Below are positions 3,201-21,200 of a DNA stretch of 64,000 nt, piece by piece. The first letter of the stretch is position 1, and every line of letters begins with the position of its first letter. A program made the position numbers and the translations under genes. The notes beneath the pieces were generated by a model. It was not told the DNA's origin. It made no database searches and was given only the letters and a program-made list of their open reading frames with translations. Location of the stretch: assembly GCA_963930775.1 (NCBI GenBank), contig OZ005707.1, positions 3,100,001-3,164,000 of the forward strand, read 5' to 3'. This DNA comes from Cliona cf. orientalis (lineage: Eukaryota; Porifera; Demospongiae; Clionaida; Clionaidae).

Positions 3201-6200
3201 CTGTAATAGGGAATACATGATATTATAGTTAGAAATGGACACACACAATGCATACCGAGAACTAACTGCTAGGTTGTCATCCCCAGACCCCACCCTCGAG
3301 GAGGTGGAGTCTGGGGACGAGACTAGGTTGTACCATAGATTGTACTATGTACTCACAAAAGGTAGGTAGGTCTCCCAGATCCTCAGTCCAAACTCACTGC
3401 AAGTATGAGCAGTGTTATTAGCAAACTCTCCAAATGTTTCCTTATTTGGGCAAACTGAAGTGGTGAATGAAGCTCCTGATGGATGGTTGTCAAGATCATA
3501 CCTGCAAAGTTGATTCATAGATGTGGTACTGTATTTCATGGTGTTTTTGTTGTTCTTAAACTTCGATAAAAAGTTATAATTATGCTTTAAGGACAAAATT
3601 TTAATATTCAACATTCTAGCTGTGTGTGCTTATAGTTGTGATAAAGTTTGCTAAGAAAGATTAAACAGAGATACCAAACTTTACGGCTAAAAGCGACTAA
3701 ATGACTAAAATAATTTTTCCAGACACATCTTATTATAGCTGGAATACTCACCAGAATCCATAAGCTCTGGAAGCTGCTGCAGCATTGCCAATGAATGTAT
3801 TTTGTGGATTAGTGATCCAGAACGTGGCTGGGATTTGATCAGTGTTAAGCAGAGACGATGAGCCTCGGGTCAGAACTCCAAGATTTCGAATGTAACGGTT
3901 ATTGGTCTCAATCCCGTCTTCCTATTAGAATATTTCAAGAAAGAATAAGAATGTCTAAGCCAGAAAGCAACACTAAAAAAGCTATAAGAGAAGCCTGGTG
4001 ATGAGGCTAAATAAAGAGTAGATGACAACATGCAAATGCTGTAAATCTTCATAGCTGAGGGCAGCTATAAATTAATCTTACACACTATTATGTTAATTCG
4101 GTATGAGGTTGTTTCTGAAAGTTTTATAAAACGAATATTTCCAGATCTATAGTATAATTACTTACCATAAAGTAGGCATGTCCCTTGATATCGTAAGCCA
4201 CATTGCCCTCAATGAGAAGGTCATGCACACCATGAGCTGTGATGGCTCTGTTGTTGGAATGGTGAATAGCACAGTATCTGATATAAGAGCCATTCATTGA
4301 ACCACTCAGGTGAAAGTGGATGGAGTAGCGACCAAGTCGAAATGCTTGACCACTATATCGAACCTCGGTATGCTCAATTCTGAAGCAAATGATTGGACAT
4401 AGAATCAGGGTTGAATTTTATACTTTTATTTCGAGTACCTGATGGGTGTTGGGTCAGGTCCTCTCCTGTGAATGAAGATCTGGGCTCCATACTGGTCAGC
4501 TCCTAGTCCATCTGATGCTTTGGGACTCTCTAGTTGACTACCCTCAATGATTACATTGTGAGAGAGAAGACCAACTTCAGCTCTGCATTAGCATTGAAAT
4601 GCAAAATCCAATTATGTAAGTTATATCACGGGTGTATAATATGATCATAATGCAATGAAGATAATGCACACTACTATAATACTATAGACACAAATCTTAG
4701 CCGGTGAGCATTAAATTATTACTTGAATTCAACACTGAAATATAATGCTGATGAATGTCATTCAGCATTGAACTAAGATTATTACATCAGATAACCACTA
4801 ATGCAATAATGATGTTATAATGCATACTGTAGACTTTCATTATGTATGGTGGGCATTTTACCTGAGTTCAATAGACTGGCCATCCTCCAGTGTTTCAGTC
4901 ACACCATGGTGAGTAAATCTCAAAGCATTGGTCAGATTGATTGTTCTTCCATCAGCTGAAACTGAAGCTACTTCATTCTCCTATACCAGTACAACAAATT
5001 CCAATTGAACCAACCTTCACATGCAATCACTACAAGCATAATCCTTCTTACCTCTGTTTCATTACCATCCTTGCCAGTGGGAGCAATCACAATCTTGTCT
5101 CCAGGCACCCAGTCCACTGGCTCTTGCAGGTCAAGGCTCGTGGCATTGGCCAGAGCAGTGCTTGCCAACCTTGTCCAGGTTATCCTCCTAGGAATGCCAT
5201 GAAGATCCAATTGTCCTTGTCGAATACCTAGAACCTATTACAATAATTAGCCAAAGTGCATAATACTCAATTATAATATTATTATAGCCATGCCAGCACC
5301 ATGCAATAAAATTAATGTTGGTCCCAACCTTTGCACCATATATGGGTATCTCTGGGTCGGTAATGAAGCCATGAAGAGTGATAGTGGCTCGGTGCTGGAA
5401 GGGATTACTTTCTGTACCAATCTGTTACGAGAGCATTATTTTTAAGTCATATCAAAGAGATGGATAAATTAAGTTATATACCTGCAATCTACCACCATTG
5501 ATGAAGATGTACTTTGCTTGAAGATGCAAATCTTGCTCGTCCTCAAAGATCAGTGTTCCCTCAATCAGGATGAGATTGAGAACTGGAGGACTAATATCCA
5601 GATACACAGTTTGGCTTAATTTGATATAGACAGATTCTCCTTGACGAGGTAAAGCATTGCCACCCCAGGTAAAGCGACTTGACCACCGATCAACATACTC
5701 AAACACAGAGCCCTCACTGCTAGTGGCATACCCTTTGCCTCTCACATAAACTCTGACTATCGCCTCCAAGGTAGTACAATGCTCGCCTGTTCTGCAAGTA
5801 ATGCTGGTATCTGATATTTGGTAGTTACGGCCATACCATTCACACAGGATCCCATCAATAGTTACAGTAATATCACTAGCTTGAAGGTCAGCAGCATTTG
5901 TGATATTAACAGGAAAGAATCCTGTGCCAGCTAGGGACACAATCGTCCCACCTGCTGTACCACCAACATCAGGACTCAAACTGTCAACCTCAGGAGTTAG
6001 AAGGGATGAAAATTCAAATAAATCTGAAGAGAACTCAGTGTTACCATTATACGACACACTGATTGTACAATTTTGTTCAGATGGTTCCAGGGAGTTTGCA
6101 CCAAGTGCACACATCAAACTACTATAGGATGACTGCATTACAAGGCAGTCCACTTGACCACTACAGAGAGTCACTGTAATGGTAGAAAAATCGGCACCAG

Positions 6201-9200
6201 CTGAAAGGTCTGGAAATCCAGCACCATCAATAGTCATGGTGATTCCTCCCCCTTTACCTCCAGATAGAGGGGAAAAGGAATGAATTGTGAGAGAGTAAGA
6301 GATGGAGTTATCACCATTGGTACTGGCAAAGCCAAGTCCATGAATAAAAACGTGAATGTTGTAATGACCAGCTGGCTTTATTGGTAGGGTACAAGTCACT
6401 GAAGTGTCAGTAATAGAGGACGCTGAGCATACGTTTCTCGCTGCTGATGTATCAAAGTCACCAAGAGCACCAATAATTTGCACTTGGACTGCAGAGATAT
6501 TGCTACCAAACTTTGTACCAGTGATAATGATTTGATCACCTCCAGTGGCTGAGTGCCGGTCAAGTTGAGTAACAGTTGGCGTTGACTGGGATGACTGCTC
6601 AAACTGAATCAAAGAATTCACCACAAAGCCATTGACACTTATCCTAACTTCACCAGTGGAGGGAGAAGTCGTAGAATCACTTGTTATACACTGGATCACA
6701 GAGAAACTGGATGATACAATATGGCATGGTGCACCTCCAATTTGCACATCCAAGTGGCTAGATAAATAGCTGAATCCACTACCAGAAATAGTAACTAGTG
6801 TTCCTCCAAATAGACTTCCTGATGATGGTGAAATGCTAGTGGCTGTTGCAGCAATGAATAAGACAGGATAGATAGACTGAGAGTCAGCAATGATGGTGGA
6901 ATTTCTGATATCACCAGGAACTAGTTCTGTTGGATTCACAGATGCATACCCTTTTCCATCAACAAAGACATCCACAAAATAGTGACCAGATTCATAATTA
7001 CTAACAGTACACTGGATCTCTTCAACATCTTGCATGACTGAACGAAATACAACATTTTCACATGGTGCCTTATCAATCAGCACAGTGATAGAATTGATGC
7101 TGGCTCCAACTGTCATGCCCTGGGCAACTAGTCCACGGCCATACAGTGTGAGAATAGTTCCAGGAAATGCTGCAGTAGGCTGAAAGAAAAATAAATCCAA
7201 ATGATGCATCACATACAGTGCAACCAAGCAAGAGAGCAAAACTTTTTAAAACCATATTTTTGGGCTAAAAACTACACAGACAGACCTACTTGATATCAAA
7301 ATGGCCACAACAATCATTTTTATTGTGTTTTACAAAATTGCAAATTTCCCATATATAGCTAATATAGAAGCCACATATGTGCAGGCCAGTTTTCATAGAT
7401 TTTTCACTGATTTTGGATAAAAGTGGCTATATCTCGGAAGTGGTAAGGATTCAAGACTTCACATTTGGGATTTAGTAACTTCATTACAAGTGCTATCAGC
7501 CCACCAAGTGGAATTTCTTAACTGGAACTAAATAGGAAAAAATGTGCCTAACATATTTGGCCCTCCGAAAGGGATTTACGGATAATATCCGGTTAGCAAT
7601 GCACTGCATAGCCTCTACACTCATGTCCAATTAACTTCATATGGATGTGCATGACTGGGTAGAGCGCACACCCTTAACTGAAAACAATACTCATTTAATG
7701 TGCCTAACATATTTTGGAGAGCCGTGTTAAAATGGAAGTATTCATGGTTACATCCCATAATTTAAAATCTAAGTAGAGTTTATGTTGAAGAAGATTGGTA
7801 CCAAATTTCAAATTCTTATCTGTAATAGATTTTATTTTATGAGTCAAAATAGGCTCAAATTCTGAAATAAAAAAGTTTTGCTCTCTTGCTTGGTTGCACT
7901 GTAGGCGTAGGAAGATATTGAAGGCTGACTATCCAATTGTGTGCGAAGTGCACATGAAAGCTTTATGACCACGCCCACTTTGTGTCAAATCACGCCCACA
8001 TCTGCACGATCGAGGCCGCTATCTCGGTGAAAAATGAACTCAGCTGTAAGTCGAGTGGAATAGATTTGGCAGCTATTGAGGCACTTTTACTCATAATCAG
8101 GCCTGGTAAATGTTTTATAACAATACTGGGATGGAGAACAAAGGGGGCTCTGCTAGAATATTGCGGGGGGGGGGGGAGCTGTAGCCCCCCCCCCCCCCCC
8201 CCCCAAATTCCTATGCCTATGCATCATTATTATATAGACCAGAAAAAAATCAGTTCCTCATATTATGTACCTGAATTTGAATCAATTGAGGTGTAGCTTC
8301 AGCACTGTAGGAGAATGAGCAATCAACATTATTTGCACAGTGAGCATTGATTCCATTATCCAATGCTGGAAATCCATCATCAGGAAGGACAATAATCTAT
8401 TAAAATAAATGTGGATTCTTGTGCAACACAACTAGTCTAGTCAGAGCATACTTTAATCTTCATCCCAGCATCACAATGACCAGCAATGGAACAGAGAAAG
8501 TAATAAGATCCAGGCACAAGATCATCAATTATGGCACTATTGTCAACACTGGGTTCCCCCCACACATAGAGAGAGCCAGCAGCTATGTCACAAGAACTGT
8601 ACACATCTTCAGTTACCTGATATCAATAGTACACATCACAATAGTTATTTACTGGAAATGATAGCTCACTTGGTGAAGAGAGTGGAAACCTTGCCAAGTA
8701 AAGATGACTCTCTCCCCTTCCTCAACAGTAAGGTCTTCATATTCTTGAATACGCCATGGGACAGTGTGGGAGATAATATCCTGCAGACAGTAGAGAAGAA
8801 AATCACAGCGCATTTTGGTTGTAATACTATTTAAGTGGTGAGTGCTAACTTGTTCACTGTCTGTGTGCTCTTCAGTGCCAGGTATCACAGTGACTGTGAA
8901 TCGCATTCCTGCTTGACAGTGCCCACCCACTGCACACACAAAGTGATGTTCTCCAACAGAGAGACCACTTATGGACATTTCTCCACTGGTAGTTGGTTCA
9001 ACTTGCCATCTCTTTCTCACCTGTGAATTAAAATAATTAAATAATGTGGAAAAATGTTCAGCAGGCAAATTGTCTGCAAGTGATGCATGAGATCCTCCAT
9101 AAGCTGACTAATTATAGTTACCCTTATCACCTGCATTTCACTATATATATCACTACACAAATATTTTAATAGCTCCAGTATTCTGTCAGAAAATTAATAT

Positions 9201-12200
9201 CTAATCTGTTTCTCACTTTTCCAAGCTCATATGCTGAGTCACCAACAAACTGACATTCATTTGCTGAAGTAACTGCTGTTGATATTTCAAAAATATTGTG
9301 AGGAACTGAGTCATCCCACTGAAACAACAGGCCAGTGCTGGCACTGATGGTGAGGTCGCTATGCTGCCGAACATGCCACTCAATCACTTCAACATTACCA
9401 ACTTGAATCTGCAAATGAGAATGATCAATGAAAACAGATTATTTCTGAGATGTGCAGTCTCATACTCGAAGTTTCCTTCCAGTTTGACATCCTCCTGAAA
9501 CAGAATCAATGAAGTAGTAGATTGCACCCAGCTCAGGAGTGAATGTCATCACTCCACCCCTCTGTGCTTTACTCCACTGCCTTATGAACTGAGCTGAGAG
9601 ATCACACTCCTCAAAAGCATAACGAGATGTTTGTAAAACTCCATGCAAGCTGAAACATATAGCAATGACAAACGTAAAACACTACTGATACATCAATACT
9701 AAATTTTCATACCCTGTCCATTCAAACCGGATGGAAGTAGACTCCTCTATTTCAAGGTACATGTCTTGTGGTGCATCCCAGTTTACTACTGTATCATTGG
9801 TGAAACCTTGATCCATGATACTGTAAATAATGTTGGGCACATTTCCTTGACCGACTCCATCCTCCCCATTCACTGTGATCCATACTGGCTGGCTCTCTGT
9901 GGTGCCATAACGGATACGTGCCTGAATCTGCTGAGAGTGGAGTGGTCTACTGTAGAAGGCTACTTCATCTAAATATCCCTCAAAAGGACCAAGAACTTGG
10001 TTATTAGTGCTTGAAACAGGTGGACTATTGCTGCTACCTCCAATGCTAACTGGAGTGGTAGCAGGTACAGGAAGATACATTGTTCGCTCTTCTATTCGAA
10101 GATTATTAGAGTACAATACTTGCAATCCACTGCATTGATCACCTGGTGGATAGCAATCATCACTGCTATCAGCAGCCCATCCATAATGAACATACTGCCA
10201 CACTGACAGATTAGTGTACTCAGCTCGAATGATACTCCATACTCCTGCCGGTAGTTCACTATCTTCAAGTACATGGAGGTAACCACTACAGCTTTGGGAG
10301 CACTGTGAAGAATTTCTCACCAATTCACACTCCAACGATGAATTTGTGGTGTAGTTTTGAGCAGAGATACTAGTGGCTAGCCAGAACTCAAGCTGGGTAC
10401 AAGGATTCAACATAAGAAGGTAACCTGCACTAGCAGCCACCCCACTATCAAAACTGGACGAGTCCACGATGATTTGATAGTAGCCTCCTGCTTGAGGCAC
10501 CTTAATCCAGAGGTCCATTGCAAACTCAGCAGCATCAGAGAACTCTGGTAGGACAGGGGTTTGCATATAGGATGCTTGAAAGAAGGCAGCCTGATCAGTA
10601 GCAACATTGCCAGATATACCCATTTGCTGTGTCATAACAGTACCGGAGATACTAGCATTTGCTCTGAATCCCAGTACCCCACTGCTTCTGAACCACAGCT
10701 CCCCATCACTGCTCAAATAAGATCCATTACTTCTGTAATAGTCAGCTTGCAAACTCCAGTAAGCCAGAGCCATATCTTGATCTACAACTGACGAATACCC
10801 ATCATCTCTGCTGGCTTGAGTAGTGCATACCAGTTGACCGCCACTATCTATTGATTGGAGGGAGCAAGGTGTATTTCCAAGAAATACTCTAGTCTTTGCA
10901 ATGTCAGATGGTACTATTCCTGTTGTGTGAATGGTGAGAGAAGTTCCACCTCTGAGGGAGCCACTTGTTTCACTAATAGCATCAATCCTGGGATGGATAC
11001 AAATCACGGAATTGTCCAAGCTTGCATAGCCCCACCCTCTGCCAGCAACGTGAAGTATAGGGCGATATCTACCCGGTGATAAGTTCGGAACAGTACAATG
11101 TACTTCTGTAGAGGCTTGATATGTTCTCATTGTGGCCACTGTGGAGTTGAGTGGTATGGTGCGTCTTGAGAAGTTTGAGGAGATGCAGGTTGCTGGAATT
11201 TGACCTCCAAATACAAAAACATTGTCTTCAGCTAGGTCAGATAAGCCAGTTAAAACGAGGTCTATGCTGTCACCAACAGTGGCTGCTGGAGTCACACTCT
11301 GGATGATAGGGGTGGCAGCAGCAGAATAGGTGTAATACTGAAATGGAGATACTGTATCATCGCAGGTTATGTTGAGTGTAGATGTGTTCACTACCACAGC
11401 ACCAACTCTTATGGAGAGCTTGGCTGCAATATCTTCCATATCCACTACAGTGATGCTGCCATTGAATCCTGAAAAAAGATATTTTGCCTTAAAATTGCAG
11501 TAGTTAACAATCAAGCAATGCATACCTATATGTGCATATCCTTCTGTTATGTAGTAATAGGTTCCTGGAGTGGTGAAGGTATGGCTGAAGTTCCCCGTGA
11601 CACTCCGCCTAGAACGAAATCCCACTCCATTATACTCCACCTCTCCAGGAGAATCAATTTGAGCCACACCCCTTCGAGTAGTAAATGATGATCCAGTCCA
11701 GCTCCAGTGAACAGTGTCCCCAACTCTGACAGTCAGAGAGGCAGGGTTCCAGCTGTATCCAAGCCCATAATCATCATGGGAGCTGTGGAGCAAATTCAAC
11801 ACAACGTACTGGATTTGCAGTGTGTACACATAATACGATTGCCAAAATATTGGCGGAAATTAAACTCAGTGGTTGGGCAGCTGCCCAATTTAAATTTGGT
11901 GGTTTGGTACAGGATTGCCACAATAAGTAGCAAGAATCTTGGCTTAACAAAGCAGTCAACTTTATTCTGTAATAGATTACTTACTCATTATTATTAATGT
12001 GGTGGACAGTAGCTGAAGAGGTTGTGACACAAACAATCTCAGTGTCTGTATGGCTAACAATGTTGCACTGGTGATCACCAAGAGTCACTTCTATCAGTGA
12101 CAGATCTTGCCCAAAGCCACGCCCATCAATATCCAGGGTCTGACCTCCAAATAAAGATCTGCATGCAAGTACATTAATTTTAAATAGACTGTTACTCCAA

Positions 12201-15200
12201 TATGTAAGTGGCATCTCATGCACCCAGATTAAAATCTTGCAACTATTTTCTTGGTCCATATGCATCATTAGCCTAAACATATAAGAGTGCCTGACTCTAA
12301 TTTTTATAATCTTACCCTTCACAATGTGAAATTGAGTTGACTTGCAGGAGATATGTGAATCTCCCTCTGCCACTGGCTCTTCCCTTACCATCCACACTGA
12401 CTTGTACCTCAACTTCACCAATGGAGTGAATAGGTGTGGAGCATACAATCTGTGTATCACTAGATGAAGTCACAGTACACAGAGATCCACCAATCTGTAT
12501 TGATTTAACTATCCACTATGAGAATGTTACCCAAAAAGTAGCATCTACCTTCACTATGTTTTCTAGTACCACACTGGAGAAACCACTTCCCAGTATGGTG
12601 ATGGAGTCTCCCCCTCGGATGGATCCCTCCACTGGCTGGATGCTAGTGATAGTTGGAGTGAGCACAGAGCTATATGTATAGCCAGCAGTTTGTGTCTGGC
12701 TGCTTGACATTTGAGGTTGATCGGGACAAAAAACTTCAACTGTCACATCATATGTTGAGTCATTTGCTGTTTCAGCAGGTGTAATAATGATTAGAGTTGT
12801 CAATGTTGATTCAATGACTTCACAGGTATTCCCACCCACTGTGACAATATTTCGCCATCCACTTTGACATCCAGCTACTGCATCATAATAGCGAGACAGT
12901 GCAAACAGCTCTCGAGTATCACTACCATCAGCAGAGGCAGAATCATTAATCACCAGATGATAAAATCCATGTCCGTTGATTGTCACTTGCGTTCCTCCAG
13001 CAATACTACCTTCCGAAGGACTAATAGAGTCCACCTCTAAACGATACTGTAATACTATTCCATTTGAGTCAGCCTTGCCTCTCGAGCTTGAGTACAAAGA
13101 GAGTGCTTTGGATCCAGCAAAACTATCAGATAGGATGCACTGCATTGTTTCATTTGAGCTAAATATTACTTGACATTCAGCATCCCCAAATTGTACATAG
13201 GTATCTTCAGCTTGTTGAGAAAGCAATGATCCATAAATTTCAATACTATCTCCACTTTTTGCTGAAGTGGCATTTATTGAATTTACAATTGGAGTAGCTG
13301 CTGGAGTATATGAGAACTTGCAAAAGTCCTGATATTGCTGTGAAGTGAGCTCCTCAGCAAGACCAAATCCCCCACCACAAGCTGCAAGCTGATCTCTGAC
13401 ACGTACATGAACCTGAAAACACAAATTAACAGCGAGAATGTTTACTGACATAGTAGCATTGATATTGGTAACAAAATACAGTCTTGCACCCAGGCAGATA
13501 CTTTAGGCGAGGAGATAGAGCCAGGGTACAATTATACTGCTGCAAGTGTCTGGGTACATGCGATCAAGGCAATGTACAGGTGCATGTACTGTACGGTAGG
13601 GTAACCAAACCTGAGGAGTCTTTTCAACAGTTTGTAGCATGTGCCCAGGAATCGGTCGCAGAAAAAGACCTCCAGTGACTTCCTAAAGAATGAATATTAT
13701 GCTGATCGGCATCCAGCACAAATCGCAGAAATTTCACTTTACCTCTATGACTCTTGTTCTGAGGTTATCCCCCGAAAGAGAGTTGCTATCAACTTCTAAC
13801 AAAGGAAGATCTCTAGCCTTATCATCAAACTGGACCGTGAAACTTCTACCAGGACAGAACTTTCCGAGACGATCCTGAGGGAGTGGTGTGTTAACATAGG
13901 CGACTGTCACACCACCAACACCATTCACTGCTTCTATGGCCTCCTTCAGCTACAGATAACATAGTAATGGTGGTGATAACTACTTGAGCTATTATATTGT
14001 ACCCTAACGTTATTGTAGGCAGCATAGTAAGATGCAAGGAAGCTTTATAGCTGCCACAGTATGTAACTATAATATGGGTGGGACTGTTGACAAGGAGTAT
14101 AATTTCCACTAATAATTAGCGCTATGGTACCTGGTGAGAAGTGGCTCCATATGGTACTGGTGGTGTCCTGCCATCGTTTAAAAGTAGCTCAAATGTTCCA
14201 TTTATGGGAGCACTTGCTTCCTGCAACTTGGAAAAACTGAAATCCACTATACCTGCATGAAAATAATTATCAGGTTTTCATTATCAGCCTAGGATCAAAG
14301 GTTGACCGTTAAACCTGTCCTTATCTAGTACTGGTGCCACGTCAGCAGCAAAGAAGGGACTTTTATTGAACGAGACATACCTGGAATAGCTTCCCCATCA
14401 ATAAGTGTGACATTGATCAGTGGTATGTCATAATCACATGAGCTTGGTACAATCTCCATGGAAACGGTGAGGTTGATATAATCCGAATCATTGTTAATGT
14501 GAGCTGAGGTGATGATCTCATGTAGAGCAATTCCACTGGGTCTTGCTGGGCTCAAGTACTGCAAAGCAATCCACATAGTCAAGGCATGCGAAATTTATCT
14601 GAAAAAGCCTCACATTTTCCCATGCAAAATTTCTTTTTTCGGAAGAAATGGACACCTCATCGACATAGAAGCCTAGGCCTGATGTGGTTGCCACTGGACC
14701 TCCAGGAGTGGTGTAGAATCCTAGACCAATGATCTGATATGTAGGCTGTACAGTGTCATCATTATTAGCCGCAGGTATGGAGAGGCGAGGAGATTGCATC
14801 AGCAAGGTTTGCAGGTCAGTGCAGGAATACTGCCAACTGCAACATGAATATTATATCCGTAATTGCACTCATAAATTTTTTTTATGCTAGAAATTACAAT
14901 GTCAAATGCAGACATGACGAGGTATATTCCTAATCCAAAAATGGATGAAAATGGTCAGTATAAATTTGGATGATTCTTGGACCTAATTCAATAATCATCT
15001 GAAACATCCGTAAACTGATGACAAGAATCATCCACTTTCGTATGATGGTTATTTAGCGCAAGAATCATCCATTATTGGGTGATTATGGATATTCAAAAAT
15101 ATAATTGGATGAGTATAGATGACATTAGTCTCTCTATAGAGACAAATAGACAACTGTTATTCAAAGGATAATTCTTTAATTAGGTCCAAGAATTAGGCAA

Positions 15201-18200
15201 AATTTATTGCACATTCATAGTAGTATAGACTGCTAAGGCACTCACATACCAAAGAACTGATATTAGAATTAATTTTACAAGAATCGTCAATAAAAAATAC
15301 ATGATGCCTGGATATTATGTTGATCACTCAAACTCTATGCAGTCACAAAAGAATTTAACATTTTAGACATGTATTGAATAAAAAATAAATAAAACTGCAA
15401 ACAATAGCACACAGTCCTAACACACATGCTACCAGATATATCTCAGGAAAGTAAATAAGTATTAAGACCCCTAGCGTAGTGAGAATCAACCCATCAGCAT
15501 GGTTCATCCACTTCACTTTGTAAGGCCTTACAACAAGGAACATTGTTCCAAGAAGAACATGCCAGGCTCCTATGACACACTCCAGTGTGCTGTGCTGAAC
15601 TAAATCCAAGATGGCTATAAATTCTATATAATATGTAGCAAGCACAATTCTCAGTAACATGTAGAGGGCAGAGAGAGGTCGGTAATCATAAGTGCCTTCT
15701 GTTCCATTCTTATACCAGCCTTGAAAAGTGTCCATGATCAGATGCAGAATATCCCAGCGCTTAAATCCACAGCAACTGAGGCAAATCCTGAAGAATCTGG
15801 TTGGATAGAGCAGTAGAACCAAAGGAGGTAACACAACAAAGATTAAAATAACTGAAAACGATAAAACAGCATAAGGAATATGCTCCAAGTGAAAGAATTT
15901 TATCTGTGGATCAAAGAGCAATAAAGCAGAGTCAGGAATTATCTCACCTTTGCAGTTGTAGATTTCAACTTTAAAGAGAAGATTATATGAAACAAACAAA
16001 AATTTGGAATAGGAGAGAAGTAGAAAGGTAGCACATGTACTCAACAGTGTCTCTCGAGGATTCCAGTTTCTTTGTAAACGACACTTCAAGTGAACAGTTA
16101 TCCCATATCTATCATAAAGCTCTAAACCAATGTATAGGATAATAGTAAGGATTATGGGATACACAGCTATGATATAATCTAGCAGAAGAACATTGATGGA
16201 TTTCAGTGAAGCAGAGATGCACAATGGTGGGATCAGGAGACGAAAAAAATCCAAATTTACCACACCTAGTATCGTCAAGATGAAAGTCGTGAACCGACTG
16301 CCAGTGAAGCATATTACTTTAGCATAAAATCCTGAAGCAACCATTATTGCATTGACACCAATTTGCCCATATGTAATAATAATGTTGAATGGACTAGAAG
16401 TTCCCTTAATCTGAAATAGGATGATAATAAGATACAGAAAGGTTACCATCACCAACTGGAATAATAGATTCAGAAACCAAAAGTATCTATATTTGGAGCA
16501 GTCAGCACAAGTGACACCATCAGAGAAAGCTGGTGGTCCATAGCCCTGGATACATTGGCTGCAATGTGTCCCATGACGGTTGTAAGCTTTGCAGACTATA
16601 TCATTTAGGACTGGCCCAGAAATATTGGTGGAAATATTGTACATGTAGGAATTATCACATGAGCTAATCTGCCTATAAAGACATCGGCAGATTTCTATGT
16701 CCTGTGTAGCATTATTCCATGTGAAGCAGTGGCCATCTGCCACATATATTTGGTTCCTTGCACACTGTACAAATCCACCCACTGTGCTACAGCACTCACA
16801 TGACATCTTCTCCTTGGAATAAATGTATCCTAGCTGGCAAGACTTATGTCCCGCTGAGTCAGTGCTGCTCACCATAAAGATATAGTAGAGGACTAGAAAG
16901 CCTGACCAGTAATAGCTCACTACCATCTTAATATCTATATAGTATAGCTAGTTGATAGCATTCTGTACGAGTTGTTCCAGAATATCTATATATTCTATAG
17001 CACTGTGCTTACTCTTATTCAATAAATTTTCAACATGGATGTACATAATATTATACTAGTACTATTGGCTGATGATTTAACTCGTTTTCTTTTGGACTGT
17101 TGATGAAGTAACTTTCATCACTGGCTAATTATTAGTGAAACTGTTATTTAAGTTGAGACAACAATAATAATATTTACTAATCCACGTAGCAAGTATGCTC
17201 GTTCTTGTTACACCAACACTGGCAGAATAGAATAATAATGTTACACCAACACTAGAAGAATAGAATAATGATAACTATTATTCTATTCTGCCAGTGTTGG
17301 TGTAACAGCTAGTGTTGGTATAACAAGAACGAGCGTACTTGCTATGCGGATTAGTATCTATTTACCCAACCAAGAACCTCGATATAATAATATTATTACT
17401 GTACCAAAAAGGTTCACAAATGCAGCATAAAATTCCTTATCTACCCTCAATAATATTATTAAATGTACATGTATCTGAACCACACTGTCCTAGTGCTAGA
17501 TTTCAGTTGGAATAAGACTGGGGGCAAGGCTAGTGCATGTGGTATCATTATCAGAATAATCATGTATCAGAGGGTGCACAGTGAAGAGTAAGGTAACTCT
17601 TCTGGCCTGAGTCTCTACAGGTATAATGTGCTGATTATCACGTACGCTCTTTTATGCTACACAGAGATTCAACAAATCCATTGGATCCAACACCATTGAA
17701 TAGGCTATATTGGGGTTGTGGCATCAAATCACATACTGGCACACTGATAAAAATCAGGTGCTCCCTTCCCACAATAAAAAAATACCATCTTTGAAAACTA
17801 ATAGAATCTTTGTTTCCACTAACTTACATGTACCACGCAGTACTATTATTTCTGTATCACCGTGACAGCATAACAAATTATTTTATGGAATATCAATAAA
17901 GCTAATATTAAAGCCTCCATGACTGAAGAACTACATGAGGGAGCCAAGACCATGCTGCTGTAATCAGTTCTGAAGTACTGACTATTATGCAGAACCCATT
18001 GTTTTGTACATGTAGGAGAGGGGTAAGAGGGCTAGTCTTTGCCATATGTCTCACTCAATCTTCATCTTCTGGCCCTTTTTATGTCTACCATACGTATAAT
18101 TATATTACTATCGTAGAAGTCTGTACTGGATGGTGGATATATTGTACACCATGTTCCCAACTCGAGTATAATATTATTATTATAAGTGGGACCTCATAAT

Positions 18201-21200
18201 AAAATGAAGCTTGCATTAGTAACTTACTTATTGTCGTCAACGAGATCATTGTCAGAGTAATCCCAAAAAGATCCAACCAGGGGAAATGCATTGGTGCCTG
18301 CAGATGTCATGGCGATGGACCTCCACCCTATACCACTGATCCTCACAGCCAGTGTCATTGGTTGGCCGTGATGCACTTTATAAGCCAGGCAGAGGAATGG
18401 ATAATCAGACACTCGATATCTGACAGAGAGGAAGGACAATAGATAACACCATACCAGACATTGAATGTCAGCATGATATCATAGTATGTAATTGCTGATG
18501 CTTACCCATCATCATCATCAGGTTGAGGTGTATCAAACGCTAAGCCACGACTACCTTTAACCTGTGTATATGTGGGTACCAGAATATTTAAAAAAAGTTG
18601 TTGCAGTTCACTTGACAGCTGCTGGATTAACTTAAAGATCTGCTACAATATAATATAACATTATACATAATAATATAATGCGACCCTTTCTTATTGTTTG
18701 TGGCTAATATGTAATTACCCTGCGTGCGTGCATGCGCAGCAAGGGGTAAAGCAATCGGTTTGTCTGTCATCTGTCGTCTGTTATCTGTCAGTATAAAAAA
18801 CTGCAAATCTTAACATCTAAGCGAAAGTATGGTCAATAAATGGGATAAAATGGTGTAAGGCAGCGAAAAAACACCTTCTGTCTCGTTCTTAACCCTAGGC
18901 AATACCCAGAGAAGCTACAAATCGTGCAAGTATGTTGAACACGCCTACAGCGGACACGCCCACCTAGTAACCCATGAAGTCTATTGCGCATGCTCGAGCT
19001 TCTGGAGTCTACTGCGCATGCTTGAGCTTCTCTACAGCATGCTTCTAGCTGATCATGGATCTCAGAAGGGTACGAAAAGTTCGTCAGTAGCAAGAGATCA
19101 AACTTCAAAGAATAGCTATAGAGGCCGCTAAAAAGAGGCATGGCCATGGACGATATTGCCATGGCACGTGGGGTATGTGCTCTATGAGCTCTAATTTTAT
19201 ACCAAACTACCTCATCCTTTGATGGTATCCAGCTATGAATCGTTGATTATGATAGCTTATATACTAGACTTACAAAGAGTGAGTGACGTCCACAGAATGC
19301 TTCCTCTTCACTGACTTGTGGTAGACCTCCTTCCCAGGAACTCCAAGTATCAGACAATCCACCTTCAAAACTATACACATCTTCATAATGGTTTATTCCA
19401 ACTTCTTGACCAAAGTCACACACTCCAGAGAATAACTCAAGAACTGCTCTACCAATCAAATCTATATTATGGGGAAGAGAATCACCAATTATTACCTTAT
19501 TCATGAGACTCATGCTATGACTGTTCCTGGGTAAAAATGCATCACATCAAGGCCAAAACTACCTTCCTTTTGTAGCCACCCCCCCCCCCCCCCCCCCCCC
19601 CCCCCACAATATGCTCATTATGACTGTACATAGTATTGCACTTACTGGTGTCATCTTGAAGCTCTTGAAAAGTGAATGCGTCACTCTGCCTTCCAGCCCA
19701 TTCAACAATGAAGGTGAGTGGTGGATGATCATCAGAGCCCAAAGTTAGTTCAGTAGTATTCACAGTGACTGACAGTGCCTGAATGTCATAAAGTCCTTCA
19801 CTACTCAGCTCCACTCTTTGCCTCTCTTTTGCAACTTGCTGTGTTTGATTATAGTTGAAGTTACTTTCATGCATTAGTACACCGACCTGTAAAAGGAGTA
19901 AGCTGTCATAAGGCCAAGAGGCTGGCTACCTGATTTGATTAAGTACTTGTATATAGTCTCCTCCCCCTCCTTCTTTAAACTCTGCCACAAGCATGTAGTC
20001 CTCTGATACTTCAAGCTCCTCCACCTGATCTGCTCTCTGGTGTGGGTATCTATAGTAGCTTCCCCATCCACTCGCATACAGATTGGAGATAATTCTGCAA
20101 TACAGTTATACATACAGCATCCGTGCACATGATAAAGGCGACTTAACTTGCAAATAGGCTAGGATTTTATAGTATATGAGTGAATTAAGTAATACTAAGA
20201 TGATTGATGTTTATGTGTGATGCAGGTTAACTAGGAATGGGGTGTGAATCTGTGAGTACACTGTATCCCAGCTGGCACTGATGAATATTAGCAAAGACCA
20301 TAGCCACAGACATGCACGGTATCTTTCTCTATTTCACTTGTGTTATTATTGTATAGCCATACTTGTTACTATTGACATTGGAGATGTTATTTCCTGAGGA
20401 GAACCACAGTCCCCCTTCGTCATCACTAGTGATGAAGAATGTGTGATTGCCGCTGGCATGAGGATTAAAGAATGCAGTCAGTCTCTCACCGTAGCTATTC
20501 CTTTTCCTACATGGGAGAAAGTTCAAAGCGTTTGACACCTTATGTTTGTCTATTCATAGCACCATGAATCTGTCCAAGGACACCATAAAAGTGCGATGTA
20601 TGTGCAATATTATACAGCAACGTACGAGTGGGATAGCGTGCTGAAAGAGGGATACACCCCTCTTCTGTGAGGTCTGTCGGGATAGACTGTTGAAGAGTGT
20701 AGATTTTGCAATCTGTTACCACCAATATTGCGATATTGTAAGAAATTAACTCCACGGCCACCTAGTATAATATATATATAAACGCAATAGCCCTTTACAT
20801 GCAATATCGGAAGATTGGGAGTGGATCTGGGTATGAAGCTAGGATCATTCACCTCTGAATCGATAGCCATTCTCTGCAATGGAATAGCTTCCATCTTCAT
20901 CAGCAACAGCTGAGGAGTCTTGGGGAGGCTCTCCAGTCAAACACTTGATCTCAGTTGATGTGTGTGAAATAACCTGTACAGTACCATTACATGGTGACAC
21001 CATAATTACACTATATGATAAGTTTCACATTAATCTCTAACCTGACAGGCTATGCCATCAATATCAACTTCTATTTCTCCATCATCAGCACTGAATCCCG
21101 TACCAGTGATGGTCACCAGTGTACCACCATGGATACTGCCCTCTTGAGGGAATACCATGTGGATATCTAAATATCAAGTCACACGTGAAGTGCATGCTTT

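Follow-up and report, generated by a model that had tools for sequence, protein, structure and literature searches.

The locus considered here raises the question of whether a large animal surface protein may carry copper sites of the kind found in plant phytocyanins. It lies in a 64,000-nucleotide stretch of the genome of the sponge Cliona cf. orientalis (contig OZ005707.1, positions 3,100,001 to 3,164,000; hereafter the window, to whose numbering positions refer unless another contig or locus is named). This stretch contains a gene of the fibrocystin-L type, in which the original prediction had placed two phytocyanin-like blue-copper modules, here called B and C. According to our data, B and C are best explained as phytocyanin-type cupredoxin domains with complete type-1 copper sites, lying on the extracellular side of a membrane protein of the fibrocystin-L type and each likely to hold copper; we assign to this explanation a probability of about 0.6.

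Both motif sets on which the prediction was based were found exactly, that is, PHNIFEI and C-AVGG-H-CQAG-M in module B, and FHSLHQ and C-SIAG-H-CDAG-M in module C. The predicted span, from 8452 to 9408, corresponds to the outer ends of the two modules, which are encoded on the minus strand by four exons arranged in two pairs (Table 1). Joining these four exons with five neighbouring ones gave an uninterrupted reading frame, 1577 codons long, with all eight introns of the GT-AG type; the outer ends of this stretch, 11800 and 5455, are cuts that we chose and not splice sites. Moreover, the introns between module A (the adjacent, degenerate module) and B, within B, between B and C, within C, and after C are all in phase 0; hence, each of the two modules is a symmetric unit of two exons, an arrangement that would fit a tandem exon duplication.

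When B and C were aligned with three solved plant phytocyanins (mavicyanin, cucumber basic protein, and plantacyanin), 13 columns proved invariant, including those of the first histidine (His1), the ligand cysteine, the second histidine (His2), and both disulphide cysteines. In the column of the fourth (axial) ligand, mavicyanin has a glutamine and the other four sequences have a methionine. In the plant proteins, the residues named here bind the copper and form the disulphide bond. The four type-1 ligands (His, Cys, His, and Met) are complete and occupy matching columns in B and C, so that the two intact ligand sets of the original prediction were recovered; the two conserved cysteines would form a disulphide bond in each module. 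B and C share 29 identical residues over 96 aligned positions. All four ligand columns would fall among these identities by chance with a probability of 0.007 (hypergeometric), and the six columns that include the disulphide with one of 0.0005; these values refer to one species, to columns picked after seeing them, and to an alignment guided in part by the motif. That the retained pair has been under selection, as had been proposed, is weakly suggested.

The phytocyanin-like family assignment is upheld by profile matches, though less strongly for B. PF02298, the plastocyanin-like Pfam family that holds the phytocyanins (curated cut-off of 20.8 bits), matched module B with 24.2 bits (E 3.4e-5) and module C with 31.5 bits (E 1.8e-7), in the latter case across all four ligands; in the joined protein, the two together reached 59 bits (E 4.8e-16). 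Module B also matched SoxE (residues 32-114 of the piece searched, 23.1 bits, cut-off 21) and, below threshold, PF00127 (residues 21-114), and both of these matches include His1. The matches of the NCBIfam families (sulfocyanin, rusticyanin, and others) were all far under their cut-offs. Among solved plant phytocyanins, module C matched mavicyanin (1e-8), cucumber basic protein (2.1e-5), and plantacyanin (4.5e-5), and the C-terminal part of B matched stellacyanin (0.0014) and mavicyanin (0.0031). Furthermore, a profile built on five modules matched mavicyanin at 9.8e-12. A profile of the three solved phytocyanins, in turn, scored 41.9 bits with C, 26.5 with B, and 16.1 with A, and none of 2000 shuffles of each module equalled the real score (1548, 1681, and 1539 shuffles, respectively, yielded any score, the rest being counted as lower). 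When the four ligands were masked, C still reached 23.4 bits (best shuffle 7.2) and B 11.7 (best shuffle 8.3); with the disulphide cysteines masked as well, the scores were 11.9 and 5.6 bits, respectively. On sequence grounds, module C is a clear phytocyanin relative even without its ligands, and B leans more on them.

The original prediction had also described two neighbouring modules that had lost the ligands, and this claim stands only in part. Module A is indeed adjacent to B, and at the places of His1, the first disulphide Cys, the ligand Cys, His2, the second disulphide Cys, and Met it has His, Cys, Asp, Gly, Cys, and Arg; it therefore keeps His1 and both disulphide cysteines, the other three ligands being gone. 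It matched mavicyanin at 0.012. The second one, module 0, has none of the four ligands (a gap, Ile, Thr, Tyr, Ala, and Phe at the same six places) and is not a neighbour, lying about 1.6 kb upstream of A with IPT and LamG-like domains in between. It had no phytocyanin match up to E 1, PF02298 was not listed among its matches, and its score with the three-phytocyanin profile (0.6 bits) was matched by 190 of 2000 shuffles. As module 0 matches plastocyanins and not phytocyanins, the gene seems to carry two cupredoxin sub-types. Both module A and the more distant module 0 are relatives without the site, probably with a structural role. Human PKHD1L1 seems to hold a stretch like module 0 as well, without ligands.

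The genome was then considered as a whole. Searching it exon by exon with PF02298, the cut-off was passed at the B/C locus only. Up to E 10, three matches were retrieved, two of them at this locus (21.4 bits each, E about 0.04); the third, on another contig (C4, locus L018; 15.4 bits), was judged unconvincing for its score and low-complexity look. Since PF02298 gave no match in 14 control genomes, this search has no positive control. PF00127 retrieved nothing from the genome, though it was found in five of the 14 controls, and an intron-split module could escape such a search. The Ephrin family (PF00812) gave one match in the genome, below its cut-off (17.3 bits versus 25), and was absent among the Pfam matches up to E = 1. 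Probing the genome with modules C and B retrieved four and three matches, respectively, all within this locus. The core pattern [YH]F[LIV]Cx[IFV][PAG]GHC had 12 matches in a collection of genome contigs and none was a relative by tblastn at 1e-3; in viral contigs, the same pattern had six matches and module C alone three, again with no relative. These scans detect close relatives only, and within that limit a recent bacterial origin of the modules was set aside, no relative having been confirmed in the genome contigs. As for the host, the genome exons gave 29 matches with the fibrillar-collagen family COLFI (26 over the cut-off, best 4.2e-15) and none with the chlorophyll-binding family, which indicates an animal genome; in the strict, plant-specific sense of the word, the modules are therefore not phytocyanins.

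The host protein assumed by the original prediction, fibrocystin-L, agrees with the array of IPT/TIG domains, which flank the A-B-C region on both sides, and with the two G8 domains (one at 5326-5670, the other just past the lower edge of the window), each followed by a CEMIP-type beta-helix stretch. A partial PA14 match was found in a frame at 20332-20553 (18.7 bits, below the cut-off of 24). A candidate transmembrane stretch with a tail occurs in a downstream frame about 10.5-10.8 kb past the lower edge; its best 19-residue mean hydropathy is 3.28. Exons were joined only within 11800-5455, and the domains outside this stretch were assigned to the gene by strand, order, and domain plan. All these domains would thus belong to one gene, whose domain plan, as read from the DNA, is that of fibrocystin-L.

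Table 1. Cupredoxin-like modules and other features of the fibrocystin-L-type gene in the window.
Feature	Position	Strand	Evidence
Module B, first exon: His1 (PHNIFEI) and first disulphide Cys (NEC)	9217..9408	-	Phase-0 splicing; alignment columns
Module B, second exon: C-AVGG-H-CQAG-M, with Cys, His2, and Met ligands and second disulphide Cys	8850..9020	-	Splicing; Pfam; alignment
Module C, first exon: His1 (FHSLHQ)	8670..8780	-	Splicing; solved-structure match; alignment columns
Module C, second exon: first disulphide Cys (SSC) and C-SIAG-H-CDAG-M	8452..8616	-	Splicing; Pfam; solved-structure match; alignment columns
Module A, adjacent, degenerate phytocyanin-like (9795-9686 and 9649-9466)	9466..9795	-	PF02298, 15.7 bits (below cut-off)
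Module 0, ligandless, plastocyanin-like (11769-11526 and 11468-11434)	11434..11769	-	Matches with plastocyanin chains (lowest E 4.9e-5)
Best-scoring Laminin_G_3 (concanavalin-like) stretch, on the N-terminal side of A-B-C	10336..10572	-	36.6 bits (cut-off 27.6)
Following exon: IPT/TIG domains and start of first G8 domain (lower end is our cut)	5455..7179	-	Splicing; Pfam
Open frame further upstream, presumed part of this gene, with three stretches of the IPT/TIG type	12519..13502	-	107.1 bits

Some further observations concern the structure of this gene. Its 3' end, including the transmembrane-like stretch, appears by eye to be duplicated in tandem, with the second copy altered (about 3085431-3086325 and 3089194-3090918 of contig C19, locus L019). 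Two related frames resembling multi-pass membrane proteins, one at 15358-16947 of the window and the other at 5555-7007 of locus L015, both on the minus strand, share 29.8% identity over 225 residues (E 1.9e-29) and, in a second piece, 30.8% over 172 residues (E 2.4e-22). They lie on the same strand as the fibrocystin-type gene and between its exons, apparently nested in introns, and a Pfam search up to E 0.1 gave nothing for the one in the window. Within an intron, at 8165-8204, a run of G and, shortly after it, a run of C make up a short inverted repeat.

A second fibrocystin-like gene was found on the minus strand of another contig (C8, 988393-997923; loci L013 and L014), with a frame of 3177 residues and two G8 domains; inspection by eye suggested that it also has IPT-like stretches and a single cupredoxin-like module without ligands. 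At the six places this module has Tyr, Met, Gly, Leu, Thr, and Val, and its score with the three-phytocyanin profile (5.4 bits) was reached by three of 2000 shuffles. The genome searches with modules B and C retrieved no A-B-C-like module from this gene. It is a single open frame, whereas the gene in the window is cut by many introns, and it may possibly derive from retroposition or intron loss.

If the proposed explanation is correct, B and C would each fold as a beta-sandwich that binds a single copper ion in the extracellular space; loaded with copper, the modules would act either as a surface copper holder or as a one-electron redox site. On the strength of homology and of the complete ligand sets, copper occupancy is probable; the use of the two sites in electron transfer or other redox chemistry is more doubtful, although possible. 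Several points weigh against this explanation, some of them concerning module B. Its match with PF02298 is confined to the C-terminal half (residues 59-108 of the piece searched) and misses His1 (residue 42), which also falls outside the matches of B with the solved structures. The placement of this His1 rests on the multiple alignment and is less sure than that in C; B carries insertions downstream of His1 and of the first disulphide Cys, and its similarity with the ligands masked is weak. In the exon-wise genome search, the PF02298 scores were barely over the cut-off (21.4 and 21.4 versus 20.8 bits), and no match was obtained at E 0.001. Moreover, module A shows that loss of the site is tolerated within the array, the data come from one species only, and the splice model of B and C is a paper model based on DNA.

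Among the alternatives, the main one in function is a non-redox use, in which the sites would bind copper to store it, to sense it, or to stabilise the surface coat; this is a sub-case that overlaps the proposed explanation, and we regard it as possible, somewhat short of even odds. In solved cupredoxins, the Cys-His-Met loop belongs to the electron-transfer type, which speaks for a redox use, but the two uses are not separated by the present data. On the other hand, the sequence points to no partner enzyme or electron donor, and vertebrate PKHD1L1 is described in passages of PMC6707252 and PMC11043200 as a coat protein of stereocilia, both of which would suit a non-redox role. The main alternative in kind is that the cupredoxin fold and the disulphide are kept for structure or binding with the copper unused, the ligands of B and C being leftovers not yet lost. 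We consider this rather unlikely. It draws on the loss of three of the four ligands in A and of all in module 0, and on the ephrins, which are presented in part of PMC6485061 as an animal cupredoxin fold that has lost copper; yet B and C have kept the four ligands and both cysteines with identity at just 29 of 96 positions (0.007, for columns picked post hoc). Finally, a chance motif or a wrong splice model is highly improbable, since, although each module is intron-split in a model built from DNA and B leans on its motif, Pfam scores above the cut-off, the match of C with a solved structure at 1e-8, the absence of equal scores in 2000 shuffles, and one frame over nine exons rule out an origin by chance or by motif alone, more firmly for C than for B.

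Compared with plant phytocyanins such as plantacyanin/cucumber basic protein, mavicyanin, and stellacyanin, B and C share the His...Cys-x4-His-x4-Met/Gln set with its spacing, the disulphide cysteine pair, and PF02298; unlike them, they occur in an animal, in tandem, with insertions, within a giant protein having IPT, LamG-like, G8, and beta-helix regions. Phytocyanins are called plant-specific in passages of PMC10048054, PMC4499708, and PMC3184959. PF02298 has been reported in one protein of the choanoflagellate S. rosetta (part of PMC6993872), and copper-type cupredoxins from sponges and ctenophores (part of PMC6485061). B and C resemble these proteins in being non-plant cupredoxins, with copper sites reported for those of PMC6485061, but the proteins analysed there were single-domain, multidomain cupredoxins having been set aside. 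They would resemble the ephrin ectodomain in being an extracellular animal cupredoxin fold (modules A and 0 being comparable to it for the lost site), but differ from it in retaining the ligands.

With fibrocystin and fibrocystin-L (PKHD1L1), the host protein shares the IPT domains, the two G8 domains, the CEMIP-type beta-helix, and possibly the PA14 domain (partial, sub-threshold match) and the transmembrane span (candidate stretch). It differs in its putative copper domains, none being named in the fibrocystin domain table of PMC13424714 or in the PKHD1L1 passages of PMC11043200; the words "copper" and "plastocyanin" are absent from the former, and "copper" and "cupredoxin" from the latter. 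Putative relatives of fibrocystin extend to green algae, according to a passage of PMC13424714. In the open-access literature, no paper linking fibrocystin-L or PKHD1L1 with cupredoxin, or fibrocystin with cupredoxin or plastocyanin, was found, although protein databases may already label such domains. A cupredoxin superfamily label may exist for vertebrate PKHD1L1; the element that looks new is the presence of intact copper sites inside a fibrocystin.

Fibrocystin has been linked to recessive polycystic kidney disease and fibrocystin-L to hearing loss (passages of PMC13424714 and PMC11043200). In the broadest view, which we advance as a speculation with the odds well against it, fibrocystin-L-type proteins might have begun as cell-surface copper proteins, or might still be such in some early-branching animals, with a two-site redox or copper-relay unit in the coat, between the LamG-like and the G8/beta-helix region, that vertebrate fibrocystins lost or never had. 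To our knowledge, the chemical activity of fibrocystin and fibrocystin-L is not settled. If the sites do bind copper, phytocyanin-type copper sites would persist inside a large animal surface protein, beyond single-domain proteins and copper-free folds such as the ephrins, and, for part of the fibrocystin family, a relative with an intact site would offer a definite activity that can be put to the test.

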